Of a DNA stretch of 12,708 nucleotides, positions 292-10,782 are shown piece after piece. The number at the start of each line of letters is the position of its first letter. The first letter of the stretch is position 1. The stretch is from Sulfurovum sp. (GTDB taxonomy: Bacteria; Campylobacterota; Campylobacteria; Campylobacterales; Sulfurovaceae), in NCBI GenBank assembly GCA_027046415.1, contig JALTYW010000134.1, positions 1-12,708 on the forward strand. The letters run 5' to 3'. Both the position numbers and the translations under genes were made by a program. The notes under the pieces are model-generated. The model had not been told where the DNA came from and made no database searches. It saw only the letters and a program-made list of their open reading frames with translations.

Positions 292-2137
292 TTTCTATCC
301 TTTTTAAAATCTCATTAAGCTGTTCAGGCTGCAAGGGCTTTTCAAGAATCCCCTCAAAACCTGCTTCTGATACTTTGTCATATGTCGATTTATACACATC
401 TGCCGTGAAAGCAAAAACAGGCGGTACCATAGAGAGTGCCTTTAGCTTCTTCATCACTTCAAACCCATCCATCCCCGACATTTTAAGATCAAGGAAAATA
501 ACATCATACTGTTTCACTTTGCACATACCAAGCCCTTCATAGCCGCTTCCTGCCAGATCTACCTTGGCATCCGGATACTCTTTTTTAATAAATAGGCGGA
601 AAATATCGAGGTTTGTTTCCGTATCGTCCACCACCAAAACTGAGAAAGACTTCCCATGACCTTTTCTCTCTATACTCACATTATGTAAATGTTTTTCATA
701 CGTTATGACCGGAGCGCAATACTCATACATATCATCATAATATTTCAAAGAAATATACTCACGCATGTTTTCCGCAATAAAAAATGTTTTGCTAAATCGT
801 TTTTCACTGCGTAGATAGTAAATAAGCGCATCTATTTTTGTATATGTCTGGGGATAGGTGATAAAAGAAAAAATGTCAGGTATATCTTTCTTCGTATTGA
901 GCAAAAAACTGATTAGTCTATTTTCACTTTTTATTTTCTTTACAATAGCTCCGCACTGCTCTAAAAAATGGATCTTGTCATGGATATAGGTATTTTTATG
1001 CATACTTTTCTCAACATAAAAATAGATCTTCTTCCCTTTGATATCGGGTTGATACGGTTTTGTTTTTTCAAACAAATAGCCAAAAGAGAAGGTTGTCCCC
1101 TTCCCCGGTTCACTCTGTACATCAAGCTCTCCACCGAGTCTCTCGGCAAGCTGTTTTGTTATGTGCATCCCCAGTCCGAGCCCCTGTTTTCTCTTTTGGT
1201 AGCGGCTATAGGGTGTAAAAACATTCCGTACCTGTTCAGGTGTCATCCCTGTACCGCTGTCAGTAACGGAAAAAAGCATTTGCACACCCTTTTGTTCTTC
1301 AGTGTAAACCATTTTAAGCCGTACAAACCCCTCTTCAGTGTATTTAAATGCATTGGTCAGAAAATTGACAATGATCTCCATCATATGCATTTTGTCTCCA
1401 TACACAAGAAAGGGTGTAAACATACTCTCATATTCAAAAATGATGTTAGGTCTCTTTTTCATATCCATTGAGACATGGTCAATACACTCCAGCAGCATCT
1501 CATCGATAGCAAAAAATGTTTTTTGTATCTCCAGTTGACCGCTGTTGATCTTGGTGATATTTAAAATATCATTTACCAGCGACTGCAGACTGAGAGCACC
1601 ATGTATCGCTTTTTTTAGCTGAAACTTCTGTTCGCCTTCCAATACTTTGCTTCCCTCAATAAGCGTAAGATACCCTTGAATCGTATTGAGCGATGTTCGC
1701 ATTTCATGGGAGAGGTTGGCAATCATCCGATCCTGCGTTTTCAAAACCGTATTGAGATGGTCACTGACATTTTTGAGGATATGCTGAGAGACAAGCGACT
1801 GTGCTTCTACACCTGCTGCATATAGACAACGGTCAATAAAAAGCGTATCAAACAGTGCGCAAAGTCCTGCAACAAATCTCTTTTTCTCTTCTTCATTAGA
1901 TGTATGTTCGCACAGATAGGTATATCCTTCCAGAAGAAAATGCATCAGCTTTTGTGTGTATGTCGGATTGTTCTCTTTAAAAATGCGATATTGCAGTTCA
2001 TAGATAATCTTCTCATCCCCTTCATACAGCATTTTCTGCAAATTTTCAATCGTCTCTATTGCCTCCTCTTTTGTCCCTCCAAACACCTTCATGACCGATT
2101 GGACAAGGTACGTTTTTTGATCACTCTTCAGTTTCAT
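275..2137 (-). CDS. Soluble hybrid histidine kinase (HisKA-HATPase-pseudo-receiver-receiver)
   Basis: This is a 620-residue sensor kinase with no membrane segment or signal peptide, so it is cytoplasmic. Residues 1-130 are a helical region of unknown fold that is the likely input or docking part. HisKA follows, with the H-box SHEMRT (His144). The ATPase domain shows the N-box NFLTNAFKYT (Asn258, Asn262), DSGTGM (Asp293) and GLGLGM (319-324). Residues about 365-485 resemble a receiver in pattern but lack the acidic pair and acceptor Asp. A true receiver spans about 497-612 with Asp504/505, acceptor Asp550, Thr578 and Lys600-Pro. Its ATG overlaps the stop of the FIST gene (ATGA) and its end overlaps the HPt gene, so all three are translationally linked. 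The kinase probably autophosphorylates His144, passes phosphate to Asp550 and then to the HPt protein. The family is certain; the signal is unknown, with the FIST partner the obvious candidate. Confidence 0.93.
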   Translation of the reverse strand: MKLKSDQKTYLVQSVMKVFGGTKEEAIETIENLQKMLYEGDEKIIYELQYRIFKENNPTYTQKLMHFLLEGYTYLCEHTSNEEEKKRFVAGLCALFDTLFIDRCLYAAGVEAQSLVSQHILKNVSDHLNTVLKTQDRMIANLSHEMRTSLNTIQGYLTLIEGSKVLEGEQKFQLKKAIHGALSLQSLVNDILNITKINSGQLEIQKTFFAIDEMLLECIDHVSMDMKKRPNIIFEYESMFTPFLVYGDKMHMMEIIVNFLTNAFKYTEEGFVRLKMVYTEEQKGVQMLFSVTDSGTGMTPEQVRNVFTPYSRYQKRKQGLGLGMHITKQLAERLGGELDVQSEPGKGTTFSFGYLFEKTKPYQPDIKGKKIYFYVEKSMHKNTYIHDKIHFLEQCGAIVKKIKSENRLISFLLNTKKDIPDIFSFITYPQTYTKIDALIYYLRSEKRFSKTFFIAENMREYISLKYYDDMYEYCAPVITYEKHLHNVSIERKGHGKSFSVLVVDDTETNLDIFRLFIKKEYPDAKVDLAGSGYEGLGMCKVKQYDVIFLDLKMSGMDGFEVMKKLKALSMVPPVFAFTADVYKSTYDKVSEAGFEGILEKPLQPEQLNEILKRIENAKTA

Positions 2138-3234
2138 GCCTTATCCTTTTCGCTGATCATCGCAATGCTGATTGTCTGGTTGTGAAGAAAAATATTGTCT
2201 GAAGGATCTTTGGCAGCAGGTAAGCCAATCTCCCCAAAAGTATGCACTCCTGTAAAAGAAACATCAATATGGTGTTTGATCTCTTCCAGATAGAGATACT
2301 CCATCATTTTTAAATTCTCTTTTATCCCTATGCAGTGAAACAGCAATGCCATACTTTTTCGAGGCGCGATACCGTAGAGTCTTCCAAGTCTTCTCAGCTG
2401 ATCCTGCCTGCTAAGCATAATACCGACTTTCACATACTCTCCAACTTCCACAGGACGATAGAGACTGACGCTTTTATCTTCTCTGTTCACAGAAACAATG
2501 GATGCCAATGGAGCTTCTCTCCACTCGATTTCATGATGTTTTTGTAAAAAAAACGGATAACCGAACCTTCCAACAACCGCATCATTGATTTTGCCTACAA
2601 TCTCTTCGAGCACATCCAATACAGGAAGATGATTGAGCTCCAAGACAGTATTTCCTTCCGCCTTTGTAACTTCAAGAGGAATACCCGCCGGACGGAAAAG
2701 ATGTATGCTCATCCCCTCTACGGCATACTGTGCTGCATCAATCCCCCAAAGTACAATATGTTTATCGTAAAAGACACCGTTACAAAAGAGGCTTGGCTGT
2801 GCTTTTGAACCAGATGAAACACCTGCCACACCCCCAAAAATTTTTGGCTTTTTCAATGTGACGGAAAAAGAAGAGAGTATCGACTCAAGATAACCGGAGG
2901 GAAGACTGCTGAGCAGAATCATTTGTCGGTACATTGGTGTAAAATTTATCGTTTCATGCTCTTTTACAACATCGACCCTAAATGCATCTTTCTCCATATT
3001 GCAGACAAGATAGACTATGGGGAATTGCTCTTTTGTTTCCACATAGGGGATCTCATTGGCAATATTTCCGGCACTACTGCATCCAATAACATCAACATCC
3101 GGATATGCATTTTTTAGCTGACGATATGCATCCTGAAAACGGTCAGCATAGGTATCTCTGTAAAAACCGACAATGATCGTCGGTGTAAAATCGATCCTGT
3201 CAAAGTCTCCGTCTGAGATTGTGACATACTCCAC
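2134..3234 (-). CDS. Stand-alone FIST-domain sensor protein
   Basis: This 366-residue protein matches the FIST_N plus FIST_C pair along its whole length. Visible marks are IGCSSAGNI (50-58) and IFGGVAG (132-138) in the N part, and HTFGEIGLP (331-339) with FLHNQTISIAM (349-359) in the C part. FIST domains are thought to bind small ligands, perhaps amino acids, and are usually fused to kinases, chemoreceptors or GGDEF/EAL outputs; here the domain stands alone with no signal peptide or membrane segment. It directly precedes and overlaps (ATGA) the hybrid kinase, so it most likely supplies the input to that kinase through contact. The start is a GTG at 3234: a TAG lies four codons upstream, no ATG occurs in the first 70 codons, and GGGGGA precedes the GTG. 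The family assignment is strong; ligand and coupling are inferred. Confidence 0.92.
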   Translation of the reverse strand: MEYVTISDGDFDRIDFTPTIIVGFYRDTYADRFQDAYRQLKNAYPDVDVIGCSSAGNIANEIPYVETKEQFPIVYLVCNMEKDAFRVDVVKEHETINFTPMYRQMILLSSLPSGYLESILSSFSVTLKKPKIFGGVAGVSSGSKAQPSLFCNGVFYDKHIVLWGIDAAQYAVEGMSIHLFRPAGIPLEVTKAEGNTVLELNHLPVLDVLEEIVGKINDAVVGRFGYPFFLQKHHEIEWREAPLASIVSVNREDKSVSLYRPVEVGEYVKVGIMLSRQDQLRRLGRLYGIAPRKSMALLFHCIGIKENLKMMEYLYLEEIKHHIDVSFTGVHTFGEIGLPAAKDPSDNIFLHNQTISIAMISEKDKA

Positions 3235-3274: not shown

Positions 3275-3652
3275 CTATTCAATCTCTAAAAGTCGTTCAA
3301 ACTTCTGCTTGTAAGTTGTCGGCATAATCGGTTTTCTAAACAGCAGATCAAAAAGCTCCGATGCTTCTTCATATACATCAGGGTAAAGCGTTAATGCTGC
3401 AATTTTTGTTGTGTCACTTTTTTTTGCCGCCTCTTTGGCAATCTCGACACCGTTTCCGTCAGGAAGGCTGATATCTACTATCACAATATCATAAGGAGGA
3501 TTTTCTGCAATCTTGCGCTTCGCTTCATCCACACTCATGGCACTGTCAACATGGATAGCAATATTATATTCTTCTACCAAGAGTGATATAACCTTCTCTT
3601 CAAATTCAAGATTGTATTTGAAATCATCCACAATCAATACGTGCTTTGCCAT
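3275..3652 (-). CDS. Single-domain (CheY-like) response regulator
   Basis: This 125-residue protein is a receiver domain and nothing more. It has the acidic pair Asp9-Asp10, acceptor Asp60 in VIVDISLPDG, Thr88 and Lys107-Pro108. There is no DNA-binding or enzymatic output, so it must act by protein contact or as a phosphate sink or relay member. It is the first gene of the minus-strand signalling operon, 40 bp ahead of the FIST gene with no terminator between them. The ATG at 3652 has a strong ribosome binding site (AAAGGAG, 5 nt before). Its promoter carries the 18-bp box shared with the porin gene. Its likely job is as terminal or intermediate receiver fed by the HPt protein encoded at the other end of the operon; that placement is inferred. 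Confidence 0.92.
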   Translation of the reverse strand: MAKHVLIVDDFKYNLEFEEKVISLLVEEYNIAIHVDSAMSVDEAKRKIAENPPYDIVIVDISLPDGNGVEIAKEAAKKSDTTKIAALTLYPDVYEEASELFDLLFRKPIMPTTYKQKFERLLEIE

Positions 3653-3668: not shown

Positions 3669-3711
3669 ATTATAATAAAATAATATCTTCATTAAAGCTA
3701 TAGGACTTTTC
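3669..3711 (-). promoter_or_regulatory. Promoter of the phosphorelay operon with conserved 18-bp box
   Basis: On the minus strand a TATAAT -10 element (3674-3669) lies 16 nt upstream of the receiver gene's start codon. Exactly 19 nt further upstream is the box written on the plus strand as AAAGCTATAGGACTTTTC (3694-3711). The box has a partial dyad, AAAG-N3-TA-N3-CTTT, centred near -40 of the expected start site, and no good -35 hexamer is present. An identical box with identical spacing stands before the porin gene. The placement suits an activator that replaces the -35 contact, although repression is also possible. Confidence 0.6.
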
Positions 3712-3892
3712 CTATTTTATTATATTTTTATCATAAAATAAATTTAACCATTTACTATTTCCAAGTTATGTGATAAAGTAGATTTATATAGCTTGTGTTA
3801 TATAATGATTAGATAAGATATTAATTTTTGCTCCGACGAGAAAAGTATTGGCACAAAGACTAACAAACACTTACATGTAGAACAATTTTTTT

Positions 3893-3917
3893 AGCCCAAA
3901 CCGCTTAGGTTTAAGCC
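3893..3917 (-). other. RNA hairpin in porin 3' region, favoured on the minus strand
   Basis: The minus-strand RNA can pair GGCUUAAACC with GGUUUGGGCU around a five-base loop. That gives a 10-bp stem with three G-U wobbles. On the plus-strand RNA those positions become A-C mismatches, so the structure belongs to the minus-strand transcript. It is followed by seven A residues, so it is not an ordinary terminator. It could be an mRNA 3'-end stabiliser or part of a small RNA. Confidence 0.4.
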
Positions 3918-3929
3918 GTATATGCAGGT

Positions 3930-3953
3930 TGTATTGCCGCATACGGCAATACA
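3930..3953 (-). other. Perfect 10-bp inverted repeat downstream of porin gene
   Basis: TGTATTGCCG and CGGCAATACA flank a 4-nt spacer with no mismatch. It lies about 55 bp past the porin stop. No T run follows on either strand. The GCCGTAT at 3915-3921 can also pair with ATACGGC at 3941-3947, which competes with this stem, so two alternative folds exist. A Rho-type or T-run-free terminator, an RNA stability element or a protein-binding palindrome are all possible. Confidence 0.45.
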
Positions 3954-4008
3954 TCACTTGGTGTTTTAGTTGCATATATTATATTGCAAAAATGCTCCAA
4001 AACTGTTG

Positions 4009-5250
4009 TTAGAACTTATAATCCAGCATAACCCATACTTTTGTTGTATCAACAGAGAAGGCATCTGCACTGTACCATGAAGCTTTCAGGAGACCGGAGA
4101 GTCCTTTGATGCCAGGGATTTTGTTTTTGTAGAGTGCATCGACTTCCGTACCGTAGTCAGTGCTTCCTCTGTCACTTGAAAAGTCATGATAGATCACTTT
4201 TGCCAGTCCGAAACCTTTGGCTTTGTACCCAAGCATTCCATTGACATCTACCAGACCATCTGCCGGTGTCCCAAGGAACATATCTGCCCAACCGTTATGT
4301 GCGTGCAATGTTGCAAGTGGTGTCGCAAATGCCCCATTACCATCACTTCCTGCGCCCAGTACTTCATACTGTGCTCCAACAAGAACCCCACTTATATTGA
4401 CAGTTCCTTGAATATTGTAGTAATCTGCATCTGCACTTCCATCACCGTTTGTCGGATCAGATTGATGGGCATACTCTGCACGATAGGAGAGCTTTGCGCT
4501 ATCGAAGCCCACTTTACCTGTCGCAGCGATACCATAGGTATCGGCAAAATCTTCAACAAGGTAGCCGTATGCAGTCAGTGTCAATTCAGGCATAAACGTA
4601 TACGCACCGTGTAAAAGTACAGTGTTGGTATCGAATCCGTCACCTACAGGTTTAACTGTTTTATCATCAAAGATAGTGTTGACACGCCATACATATGCAG
4701 CAAGCAGGTTAAGGTTTTCTACAGAGTTGTTGATAACAGCAACCGCATCATAGGTCTGTGGCATTTGTCTCCAGTTGACCGTACCGATGAAACGCTGGTT
4801 ATCGAGGTTGACACCCTGACGACCGGCACGGATCAGTGTTTTACCAAAAGCGTAGTCAACATATGCCTGTGTGATACGTGTCTGGTCAGGGTCAGCAACA
4901 ACCTGATAGAGCGGTTTGTCATTAATAGTATCATTGGAAAGATCCCAGTAGTCACCTGTACCGGCAACATTGGTTGCTTCCAAATAGGCAGAGAGACCCT
5001 CTACCTGAAGCAGGTCAGCATGAACACCAAGCATCAATCTGTTGGTGAATGCATTGGCATCATCTTTGCCATTGTCCGATGCATCGACAAACTCATATCT
5101 TGGACGAATCTCACCCTTTGCTGTGATATTGTTGAAGATCAGAAATTCTGATGCGACCGGTGCCGCCTGTTTTACCGGTGCCGGAGCGATATCTCCTCCC
5201 GCCAGAAGCATCGCTGATGCTGCCATTGAGAGCAAAAGTGTCTTTTTCAT
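4009..5250 (-). CDS. Opr-type outer-membrane porin
   Basis: This 413-residue protein begins with a signal peptide (MKKTLLLSMAASAMLLAGG, cleaved near residues 17-20), then a short Pro/Ala-rich linker. The body is rich in alternating aromatic/polar strands: GEIRPRYEFVDASDNG, LMLGVHADLL, ITQAYVDYAF and LIRAGRQGVNLDNQRFIGTV. It ends WVMLDYKF, with the C-terminal Phe used by the outer-membrane assembly machinery. This matches the Campylobacterota Opr/major porin family, which forms beta-barrel channels for small solutes. The start has a strong ribosome binding site (AAGGAG). Its promoter carries the same 18-bp box as the phosphorelay operon, so porin level is probably set by an environmental signal. 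Substrate preference cannot be read from the sequence. Confidence 0.85.
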   Translation of the reverse strand: MKKTLLLSMAASAMLLAGGDIAPAPVKQAAPVASEFLIFNNITAKGEIRPRYEFVDASDNGKDDANAFTNRLMLGVHADLLQVEGLSAYLEATNVAGTGDYWDLSNDTINDKPLYQVVADPDQTRITQAYVDYAFGKTLIRAGRQGVNLDNQRFIGTVNWRQMPQTYDAVAVINNSVENLNLLAAYVWRVNTIFDDKTVKPVGDGFDTNTVLLHGAYTFMPELTLTAYGYLVEDFADTYGIAATGKVGFDSAKLSYRAEYAHQSDPTNGDGSADADYYNIQGTVNISGVLVGAQYEVLGAGSDGNGAFATPLATLHAHNGWADMFLGTPADGLVDVNGMLGYKAKGFGLAKVIYHDFSSDRGSTDYGTEVDALYKNKIPGIKGLSGLLKASWYSADAFSVDTTKVWVMLDYKF

Positions 5251-5275
5251 TTAATTCTCCTTATAATTTTGTGCC

Positions 5276-5318
5276 ATAATAGTAAAACAATCTCTTCTCA
5301 AAAGCTATAGGACTTTTC
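5276..5318 (-). promoter_or_regulatory. Porin promoter with conserved 18-bp box
   Basis: The plus-strand sequence AAAGCTATAGGACTTTTC at 5301-5318 is identical to the box before the receiver gene. A TATTAT -10 element (minus strand, 5281-5276) lies 19 nt from the box, as at the other site. A TCTTC (5293-5297) also sits three bases from the box in both promoters. The sequences beyond the box and between the genes otherwise differ, so this is not a simple duplication of the whole upstream region. Confidence 0.6.
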
Positions 5319-5389
5319 TTAATTCATAAGATAGTATAAATTTTAGAGGCAGGAAAGAGGGGGCTCTGTCTGTTAGAACTACAGCTATT

Positions 5390-6037
5390 TTAGTTTTGAT
5401 GTTGAAGTACAAAATGTATCAGTTGTGCAGTATTGGAGAGTGAAAGTTTTTCAAGGATATGTGCATGGTGTGCCGAGACAGTTTTGGCAGAGATGTTTAA
5501 TTGCTTTGCAATTTCCTTGAAACTCAAACCTGAAACAATATAGTGGCATATTTCAAACTCCCTTTTGGAAAGTACAGTGAGTGATGGCTTTTGCCTCTTT
5601 GTCAATACAGTACCATACTTCAAACATTGTGCATATTCCGGATTGATATAAGTCTCACCGTTGATAATAGTATCTATTGCATCTTTAAAAGATTCAAGTA
5701 CGTGCTGCTTGTGCAGATAACCGACTGCACCTTCACGTATGCACTCTATGGCATAGGGGTCTTCAGGGTACATACTGCAAACCAGTATTTTCATTTTAGG
5801 ATACGCCTGTGCTATCTTTCGAATACGGTTAAAAGTGTTGACAGCACCAAGGTGAAGATCAAGAATAAGCAGATCATAGCTTTTCTTTTTAAGAAGTTGT
5901 ATCATATCGCTATAACTGCCGGTTGTATCTAGCTCATTGATTTGACACAATCGACACTTTTCAAGCAATGCCTTAATACCGGCACAGACAATATCATGGT
6001 CATCAACTATCAATACAGCATGACAATCCTGATTCAT
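5390..6037 (-). CDS. NarL/LuxR-family response regulator, no adjacent kinase
   Basis: This 215-residue protein has an N-terminal receiver with Asp12-Asp13, acceptor Asp60 in LLILDLHLG, Ser88 and Lys110. A linker leads to a LuxR-type helix-turn-helix at about 153-212 (LSKREFEICHYIVSGLSFKE, then IAKQLNISAKTVSAHHAHIL). It is a phosphorylation-controlled DNA-binding regulator. No kinase gene is next to it; the nearest is the hybrid kinase of the phosphorelay operon beyond the porin. It lies directly upstream of the porin on the same strand, with about 140 bp and a porin promoter between them, and is divergent from a cytochrome c gene. The dyad boxes before the porin and phosphorelay operon and the repeats before the cytochrome are candidate targets. 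The ribosome binding site is weak (AAGAAGA close to the ATG, GGGGGA further away). Confidence 0.92.
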   Translation of the reverse strand: MNQDCHAVLIVDDHDIVCAGIKALLEKCRLCQINELDTTGSYSDMIQLLKKKSYDLLILDLHLGAVNTFNRIRKIAQAYPKMKILVCSMYPEDPYAIECIREGAVGYLHKQHVLESFKDAIDTIINGETYINPEYAQCLKYGTVLTKRQKPSLTVLSKREFEICHYIVSGLSFKEIAKQLNISAKTVSAHHAHILEKLSLSNTAQLIHFVLQHQN

Positions 6038-10011: not shown

Positions 10012-10782
10012 TTATCTGTAAACTCTCTCTTTTATGGATGCAAGCAGTGAGAGAAACTCCTCTTTGTTTCCTTTTCCTTCCACCATATCCACAATACGCT
10101 TTCCATCGGGTGCGATAAAATAGAATGACGGTGTTCCCAGCCGTTTCATACCAAGCGGCAACTTCTCGATAAGCAGATTTTTCTTCACCAGTACAAAATC
10201 TCTGTTGAGTGCTGCTTTGACTTCCGGCTCGACCATCACATTCCTGTCCATCCAGATACAGCCTCTGCAGTAGGGCAGATAGCCCTCTATAAGAATGATC
10301 TTGCGCTCTTTCCCGGCAATAGCAAGCGCCTCTTCGTAAGTGTAACGCTTAACCCCATGTGTCACCATCATCTCCTCGGCATACTCATAAAGATACTCCG
10401 CCAGAGCTTCAATCTCCTCTTCACTCACATCAACCGGGGGCATCTTGCCATACACAGCCCGTACATTTTTAGGCAAAATCGTTTTGAACGCTTCTGGATT
10501 TTTGAGAAATTGTGTCAGCCAATCTTCAATCTCGAACTTCTGCCCTTCCGGATCGAGGGTACGGTCTCCAACCTGGTCTTTGATACGAAAAGAGAGCTCT
10601 GTTACTGTCGGTGCAGTCAGATTCATATCTTTGTTATTGTGCTGGTAGTTGACAACCAGTTTGCTTTGGGGTATGTAGTCATGGCTGTGGCACACGGCAC
10701 ACTTTTTGGCAAATACCGTTTCTCCCGAGAGTGCAAAAAGTACCGTTTGCAAAAGTGTCAATATAACGATAGACCATTTCAT
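10012..10782 (-). CDS. Periplasmic cytochrome c-thioredoxin fusion protein
   Basis: The 256-residue product has a signal peptide (residues 1-19) and two domains. The first is a class I cytochrome c: CAVCH at 28-32 binds haem, Met114 in YGKMPPVDVSEEEIEALAEYL is the likely axial ligand, and that helix closes the domain near residue 138. The second (about 145-256) is a thioredoxin-like fold with YCRGCIWMD (Cys172, Cys175), which resembles the thioredoxin_7/SoxW-like group, and a cis-Pro in GTPSFYF (Pro218). A haem joined to a redox-active dithiol suggests electron transfer between the periplasmic respiratory pool and thiols; direction and partner are inferred. It is the second gene of an operon: the CvfB-like stop TAG overlaps its ribosome binding site (AGGAG), 8 bp from the ATG. 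Both sites are complete, so I expect both to be functional. Confidence 0.88.
   Translation of the reverse strand: MKWSIVILTLLQTVLFALSGETVFAKKCAVCHSHDYIPQSKLVVNYQHNNKDMNLTAPTVTELSFRIKDQVGDRTLDPEGQKFEIEDWLTQFLKNPEAFKTILPKNVRAVYGKMPPVDVSEEEIEALAEYLYEYAEEMMVTHGVKRYTYEEALAIAGKERKIILIEGYLPYCRGCIWMDRNVMVEPEVKAALNRDFVLVKKNLLIEKLPLGMKRLGTPSFYFIAPDGKRIVDMVEGKGNKEEFLSLLASIKERVYR

Follow-up and report, generated by a model that had tools for sequence, protein, structure and literature searches.

A candidate palindromic operator at the phosphorelay and porin promoters of a Sulfurovum genome

Relation to described phosphorelays and regulators

The Rcs phosphorelay consists of a hybrid kinase, an Hpt protein and a LuxR-type regulator, and the window analysed here, by which we mean a whole stretch of 12,708 nucleotides (contig C134) from a Sulfurovum-type assembly, likewise encodes a hybrid kinase, an Hpt-like protein and a LuxR-type regulator. 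The genes concerned all lie on the minus strand, in the order regulator, porin, receiver, FIST, hybrid kinase and Hpt-like gene. The response regulator (5390–6037) combines a receiver with a LuxR-type HTH (Pfam Response_reg and GerE, both above cut-off), the domain pair that marks UvrY/SirA/GacA proteins. The outer-membrane porin-like protein (4009–5250) matches Pfam Alginate_exp above cut-off and OprD just below it, and is followed by a single-domain receiver (3275–3652; Response_reg), a FIST_N/FIST_C sensory protein (2134–3234; Pfam) and a hybrid histidine kinase with HisKA, HATPase and receiver domains (275–2137; Pfam). The protein at 1–291, cut by the window end, has no Pfam hit; we infer that it is an Hpt protein from its syntenic homologues and from an HGLKG motif seen by eye in the translation. 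NosP/NahK-type signalling likewise groups a FIST protein with a hybrid kinase and an Hpt-like protein, and the window FIST protein is a weak match to the nitric-oxide sensor NosP, at 28.9 bits where NF041558 needs 450. The operon is mostly syntenic in relatives: in the four nearest of them the regulator is directly followed by the box described below and the receiver gene, while in G024 an EAL/GGDEF gene stands between the two.

Based on NCBIfam models, the regulator is best matched by NF007018 (UvrY/SirA/GacA; 3.1e-35, 121.8 bits), with a lead of only about 2 bits over FimZ (120.1) and MctR (119.9), whereas the RcsB model gives a lower score of 56.9 bits, short of its equivalog cut-off of 235. 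Because its score is far below the NF007018 equivalog cut-off of 280, we do not file the protein as UvrY/GacA; it may nevertheless function like one. Over its full length the protein shares 27.8% identity with UvrY and 25.1% with RcsB, and the regulators of two relatives (G014 and G056) are slightly nearer RcsB.

The published UvrY/GacA site is TGTAAG-N6-CTTACA according to the excerpted text of three papers (PMC4950607, PMC9911603, PMC4682653), and in those excerpts the operators of the csrB/C and rsmY/Z promoters lie at −75 to −196, before genes for CsrA-titrating sRNAs. The RcsAB box is the 14-mer TAAGAATATTCCTA in the available portion of its source (PMC12388358). The initial annotation had not recognised the box as a known operator, a statement that fails because the palindrome at both window promoters fits the UvrY/GacA core and the RcsAB 14-mer as far as these portions of the sources go. 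As compared with the UvrY/GacA site so given, the window sites share the palindrome, the register and a TARG-N6-CYTA core but are without its outer TG/CA, and the TAAGA-N4-TCCTA of the window is in the same register as the RcsAB box in the portion cited. Unlike the UvrY/GacA operators, window-type sites are predicted to lie near −42 and precede protein-coding signalling genes. CsrA (PF02599) was found above cut-off in none of 78 genomes of the genus, with three control genomes positive and two sub-threshold matches (G075 and G076), so that signalling by way of sRNAs, as in UvrY/GacA systems, is improbable here. In the literature on Sulfurovum GacA or response-regulator binding sites, as judged by title, this operator was not found described.

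The palindrome and its position at promoters

An 18-nt box, AAAGCTATAGGACTTTTC (GAAAAGTCCTATAGCTTT on the gene, or minus, strand), occurs exactly at 3694–3711 and at 5301–5318. As first reported, and as a count by eye confirmed, it is identical at the two promoters and equally spaced, 19 nt from TATAAT (3674–3669) and from TATTAT (5281–5276), and TCTTC (GAAGA on the gene strand) sits 3 nt off on the gene side of both sites; this GAAGA neighbour is absent from the receiver-gene promoters of the relatives compared. No third site exists in the window with up to 3 mismatches, a threshold at which 200 shuffled windows gave a mean of 0.03 matches and none contained two, nor was there a further site in the window's own assembly (1,440,956 bases), where the reversed pattern yielded 4 matches at the same threshold. 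Conservation had been thought confined to the box. This did not hold, as 19 of 27 further bases beyond the 18-mer also agree between the two promoters (background mean 8.1, s.d. 2.5; 0.03% of random pairs reach 19); counted from the dyad described below, 26 of the 34 bases that follow it agree, 7 of these within the 18-mer. The partial dyad originally proposed, AAAG-N3-TA-N3-CTTT, was in the wrong register and is not conserved, the relatives reading GAAAAGTCTTATAGCCTT (G024) and GAATAATCCTATATGTTT (G014 and G061).

Among the sequences compared, the conserved unit is the palindrome TARGA-N4-TCYTA, which starts three bases upstream of the box and is found throughout the genus in the promoters of homologous phosphorelay genes. 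In the window, two candidate operator dyads on the minus strand conform to it: TAGGA-AAAG-TCCTA (3701–3714), the exact conserved palindrome with perfect 5-bp arms, which precedes the phosphorelay operon and overlaps the box at 3694–3711, and TAAGA-AAAG-TCCTA (5308–5321), with one arm position mixed, which precedes the porin and overlaps the box at 5301–5318; in context they read TAGGAAAAGTCCTA and TAAGAAAAGTCCTA. The sites of G024 (TAAGAAAAGTCTTA) and G057 (TAGGAATAATCCTA) illustrate that the arms can co-vary, TAGGA occurring with TCCTA and TAAGA with TCTTA. Mixed arms are also found, and the four nearest relatives have a weaker left arm, TCAGA.

The regulator (E 1e-40) has homologues in 16 of the 78 genomes of the genus and the FIST protein (E 1e-50) in 13, and the surroundings of these genes were fetched. 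The dyad stands before the receiver gene, or, in G002 and G012, before the FIST gene with no receiver between. In 20 stretches totalling 203,419 bases there were 20 exact palindromes, all of them outside ORFs even though about 188 kb of these bases are ORFs, whereas 59 permuted palindromes had in the same stretches a mean of 0.31 occurrences outside ORFs and 1.22 inside; the best of them, whose form overlaps the motif, had 7 outside and 1 inside. Fifteen of the 20 came from stretches fetched for relatives of the regulator or FIST protein, the others being from the window (2), L186 (1) and L191 (2). According to the ORF picker some dyads elsewhere do fall within ORFs (L194:9792, L196:428, and others in L234, L235, L240 and further stretches), and at 2 mismatches the own assembly contains 38 matches to the operator pattern vs. 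51 to its reverse, which is no excess.

The box itself is kept upstream of orthologous operons in the related Sulfurovum loci compared; the named relatives found through the regulator are three Sulfurovum MAGs. A plain 18-mer scan was discarded as stand-alone evidence: allowing up to 2 mismatches, it hit 32 places in the genus and its reversed pattern 13. With at most 1 mismatch, the 17-mer TARGAAWARTCYTATAG gave 55 places and its reversed pattern 23; 30 of the 55 had loci, and 10 of these 30 lay outside ORFs by the ORF picker. Seven of the 10 precede a receiver orthologue (one being the window), one lies by the kinase cluster of G061 and two are unrelated. The L148 place precedes a receiver gene, yet overlaps another ORF.

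The position of the dyad relative to a −10 element is constrained as well. When both strands were counted, 26 of 29 distinct exact dyads had, on one strand or both, a TAnnnT at a distance of 23 or 24 nt, as compared with a mean of 5.2 and a maximum of 10 of 29 for other adjacent pairs of offsets. The 29 dyads can be read in 58 orientations, of which 39 are in register, and include those of L186–L192, which were fetched through a motif match. All 34 gene-facing orientations chosen by the analyst, from 28 dyads, carried an in-register −10, a selection made after the −10 spacing had been seen and one that omitted orientations such as L186+4812 (33 nt from a 475-aa ORF, no in-register −10); the 29-dyad count repeats the result without such a choice. 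Dyads lacking an in-register −10 were L196:428, L187:3421, L188:6217 and a one-mismatch site on contig C169 of the own assembly (G000). With the −10 at −12 to −7 and 23–24 nt from the dyad, the dyad centre therefore falls at about −42, and the arrangement expected for a class II activator, an operator centred near −41.5 with a −10 downstream, is predicted at 26 of the 29 dyads. In the window, the candidate −10 hexamers on the minus strand are TATTAT at 3677–3672 (23 nt after the dyad) and TATAAT at 3674–3669 (26 nt) for the operon, and TACTAT at 5284–5279 (23 nt) and TATTAT at 5281–5276 (26 nt) for the porin. Those at the conserved 23-nt register overlap the ones picked originally. Because the better hexamer lies at 26 nt, not 23, the window operator centre is possibly near −45. 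The earlier proposal of an activator-type operator near −40 at the phosphorelay operon and the porin is thus supported at the level of sequence.

Two paralogous regulators and their sites

A second UvrY-like system exists in the same genome. Searched with NF007018, the own assembly gave 21 matches, of which the window regulator (122.5 bits) and a regulator on contig C146 (C146:10404–11033; 135 bits) stood apart from the other 19 (at most 48.6), and TARGAWWWRTCYTAYA is exact at four places in this assembly, the two window sites, C146:1925 and C146:5809. The C146 cluster (L191, 1925–11480) encodes a hybrid kinase (by Pfam), a PAS protein, a receiver and the UvrY-like regulator, together with an EAL/GGDEF protein, more kinases and an Hpt-like protein identified by eye from translations. 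One of its dyads precedes the receiver gene and the other lies between divergent kinase and PAS genes, with −10s in register both ways; the divergent layout with its dyad recurs in several relatives. One site of this second system, TGTAAG-AATTAT-CCTACA, has a near-full UvrY/GacA form, and second-paralogue sites read TGTARG-N6-CYTACA, like the published site in the excerpts cited above.

The strict site GTARGAWWWWTCYTACA gave 65 rows (37 places) in 23 of 175 genomes of the family, as compared with 2 rows for the reversed pattern. Within the genus it was present in 13 of the 16 genomes that encode the regulator (at E 1e-40) vs. 5 of the 62 that do not (Fisher 1.7e-8). Among the five exceptions, the second regulator has full-length relatives in G037 and G055, a partial one in G019, and none at 1e-20 in G031 and G077; the genomes with strict sites despite no regulator at 1e-20 are G031, G077, G092, G095, G118 and G162. 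Strict palindromes were also seen in intergenic positions in other genera of the family, at L224 (G111), L225 (G118) and L222 (G092). G111 has a second-type regulator too (53% identity), on a different contig from its palindrome.

In a tree of 22 regulators, those of the window, G023, G041, G050 and G024 form one supported clade. The first regulator of G053, which is split into two pieces in different frames (L077:5434–6293), was excluded from the tree. The window clade (5 of the 22) has the recognition helix KTVSAHH(A/T)H, whereas the other 17 have KT(V/I)STY, and the helix of E. coli UvrY, KTVNSYRYR, resembles the KTVSTYRTR of most relatives. The flanks of the boxes differ along the same lines, in counts that are not independent because the helix changed once, on a single branch: beside changed-helix regulators, none of 10 boxes had outer G/C on both sides, 4 had it on one side and 6 on neither, while all 10 second-paralogue boxes had it on both (9 with an in-register −10), and of 13 boxes in an intermediate group 6 had it on both sides, 7 on one side and none on neither. 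Set apart from these counts, as being without an in-register −10, were a site at window position 10290 (coding) and L196:428, and L186 was placed in no group. A coupled change in protein and site would yield this pattern of helix and flank, to which G055, with an unchanged helix and a box lacking both outer G/C bases, is an exception.

These observations allow a broader reading, in which two UvrY/GacA-like circuits within a CsrA-less Campylobacterota genome would be insulated from one another by linked changes in helix (STYRTR to SAHHAH) and operator (where the outer G/C pair is lost), the altered circuit having captured a porin through promoter duplication; we advance it tentatively, at somewhat below even chances. 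A paralogous regulator/operator pair in one genome makes divergence in specificity accessible to base-by-base and residue-by-residue study.

Proposed activation and alternative explanations

The reading that we favour, and consider probable, is that regulator 5390–6037, once phosphorylated by the relay, would bind both dyads and activate the receiver-FIST-kinase-Hpt operon as well as the porin, the latter by way of a duplicated promoter; this NarL-type protein is the likely binder of the two sites. In this scheme phosphate would pass from the hybrid kinase (275–2137) to the Hpt-like protein (1–291) and on to the regulator, dimers of which may then occupy TARGA-N4-TCYTA about 42 bp upstream of the transcription start and contact RNA polymerase where a −35 element would otherwise lie, as in class II activation. 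Switching on the receiver-FIST-kinase-Hpt operon would close a positive feedback loop, and the porin would be switched on too. At the level of sequence it draws on the palindrome, with its placement relative to a −10, its conservation and its presence in genomes that encode this family of regulators, together with the helix change and the paralogous porin. The G055 exception and the near-tie between family models lower our confidence both in this reading and in that of two insulated circuits. Such an operator provides a computable regulon for Sulfurovum phosphorelays, and suggests that class II promoters make direct use of a UvrY/GacA-type site in a genus where CsrA was not found.

The porin is 87% identical to a paralogue at C110:12872–14140, the two being the porins of this kind in the own assembly at E 1e-60, and their start regions share a ribosome-binding stretch. 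No dyad is present in the 159 nt upstream of the C110 porin. Porin matches were found in 36 genomes besides that of the window, and the porin stretches of six relatives checked (L120–L125) contained no dyad. The proposed phosphorelay-porin link is seen in this genome, through the shared operator-like site, and finds no counterpart in the relatives examined, where no porin lies under the box. The simplest reading is that an extra porin copy came to lie behind a duplicated operon promoter: a copy with its own ribosome-binding site may have been inserted between regulator and operon, and the operon promoter duplicated, in an order that we reconstruct from the present arrangement.

Several alternatives were weighed against activation by the window regulator. 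The second UvrY-like regulator (C146:10404–11033) could be the main binder of the boxes, or both could bind, so that the window and C146 would form one cross-wired regulon. The core TARGA-N4-TCYTA is identical in both clusters, the two regulators are 41% identical, and in G055 a box before a receiver gene (L186:4812–4825) is without outer G/C although the sole regulator found in that genome has the unchanged STYRTR helix, with no first-type regulator at 1e-40 and none of either kind in the L186 stretch. We still hold cross-wiring to be unlikely, given that across the remaining genomes compared the two groups have different outer bases and different recognition helices, and that G004, where a single regulator match at 1e-40 belongs to the second type, has a dyad-free FIST stretch (L078). 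A transcription factor encoded outside the window, for example a LuxR-type or Rcs-like protein, might instead use the site, which fits the RcsAB 14-mer as given in the portion of the source cited; another regulator could be missing because the own assembly is 65.7% complete. Such a factor is nonetheless very improbable, as there are just two strong UvrY-like regulators in the assembly and site and regulator co-occur.

To a similarly slight degree we credit the view that the two promoters are recent copies alike by descent alone, the box being no regulator site. The 19 of 27 matching bases beyond the 18-mer speak for copying; however, the palindrome is kept where the remaining promoter has diverged, beside regulators of 40–69% identity, and its arms co-vary in some sites, though mixed arms occur. 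Finally, the box at 5301–5318 also follows the regulator gene, and AAAAG..CTTTT could pair, as in a transcription terminator or RNA hairpin, and some near matches to the 18-mer in other genomes look terminator-like by eye. Only 5 pairs would form, mostly A/T, and the conserved palindrome is TARGA-N4-TCYTA instead; moreover, the −10 spacing is fixed, Rfam gave no match in the window or in three loci, and the porin gene ends some 300 nt before the box at 3694 is reached, which together leave this explanation a negligible probability.

Several observations concern sequences in other genomes. In other Sulfurovum genomes (L008, L010, L012, L018 and L024, in each near position 1500), an 18-mer-like repeat AAAAGTCC..AGCTTT was seen that is terminator-type in look by eye. 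At L075:3714, L076:571 and L077:10066 the Hpt-like gene is followed by a dyad with one mismatch and a −10 in register, and then by PilJ-domain genes, two of which were counted downstream in L075, where this was tested; in these three relatives the PilJ-domain genes behind the dyad are likely extra members of the regulon, and FIST and PilJ-domain genes together suggest a small-molecule input. A further dyad, at L081:8481, lies upstream of a Wzz/tyrosine-kinase-like gene, which suggests surface polysaccharide as another target.
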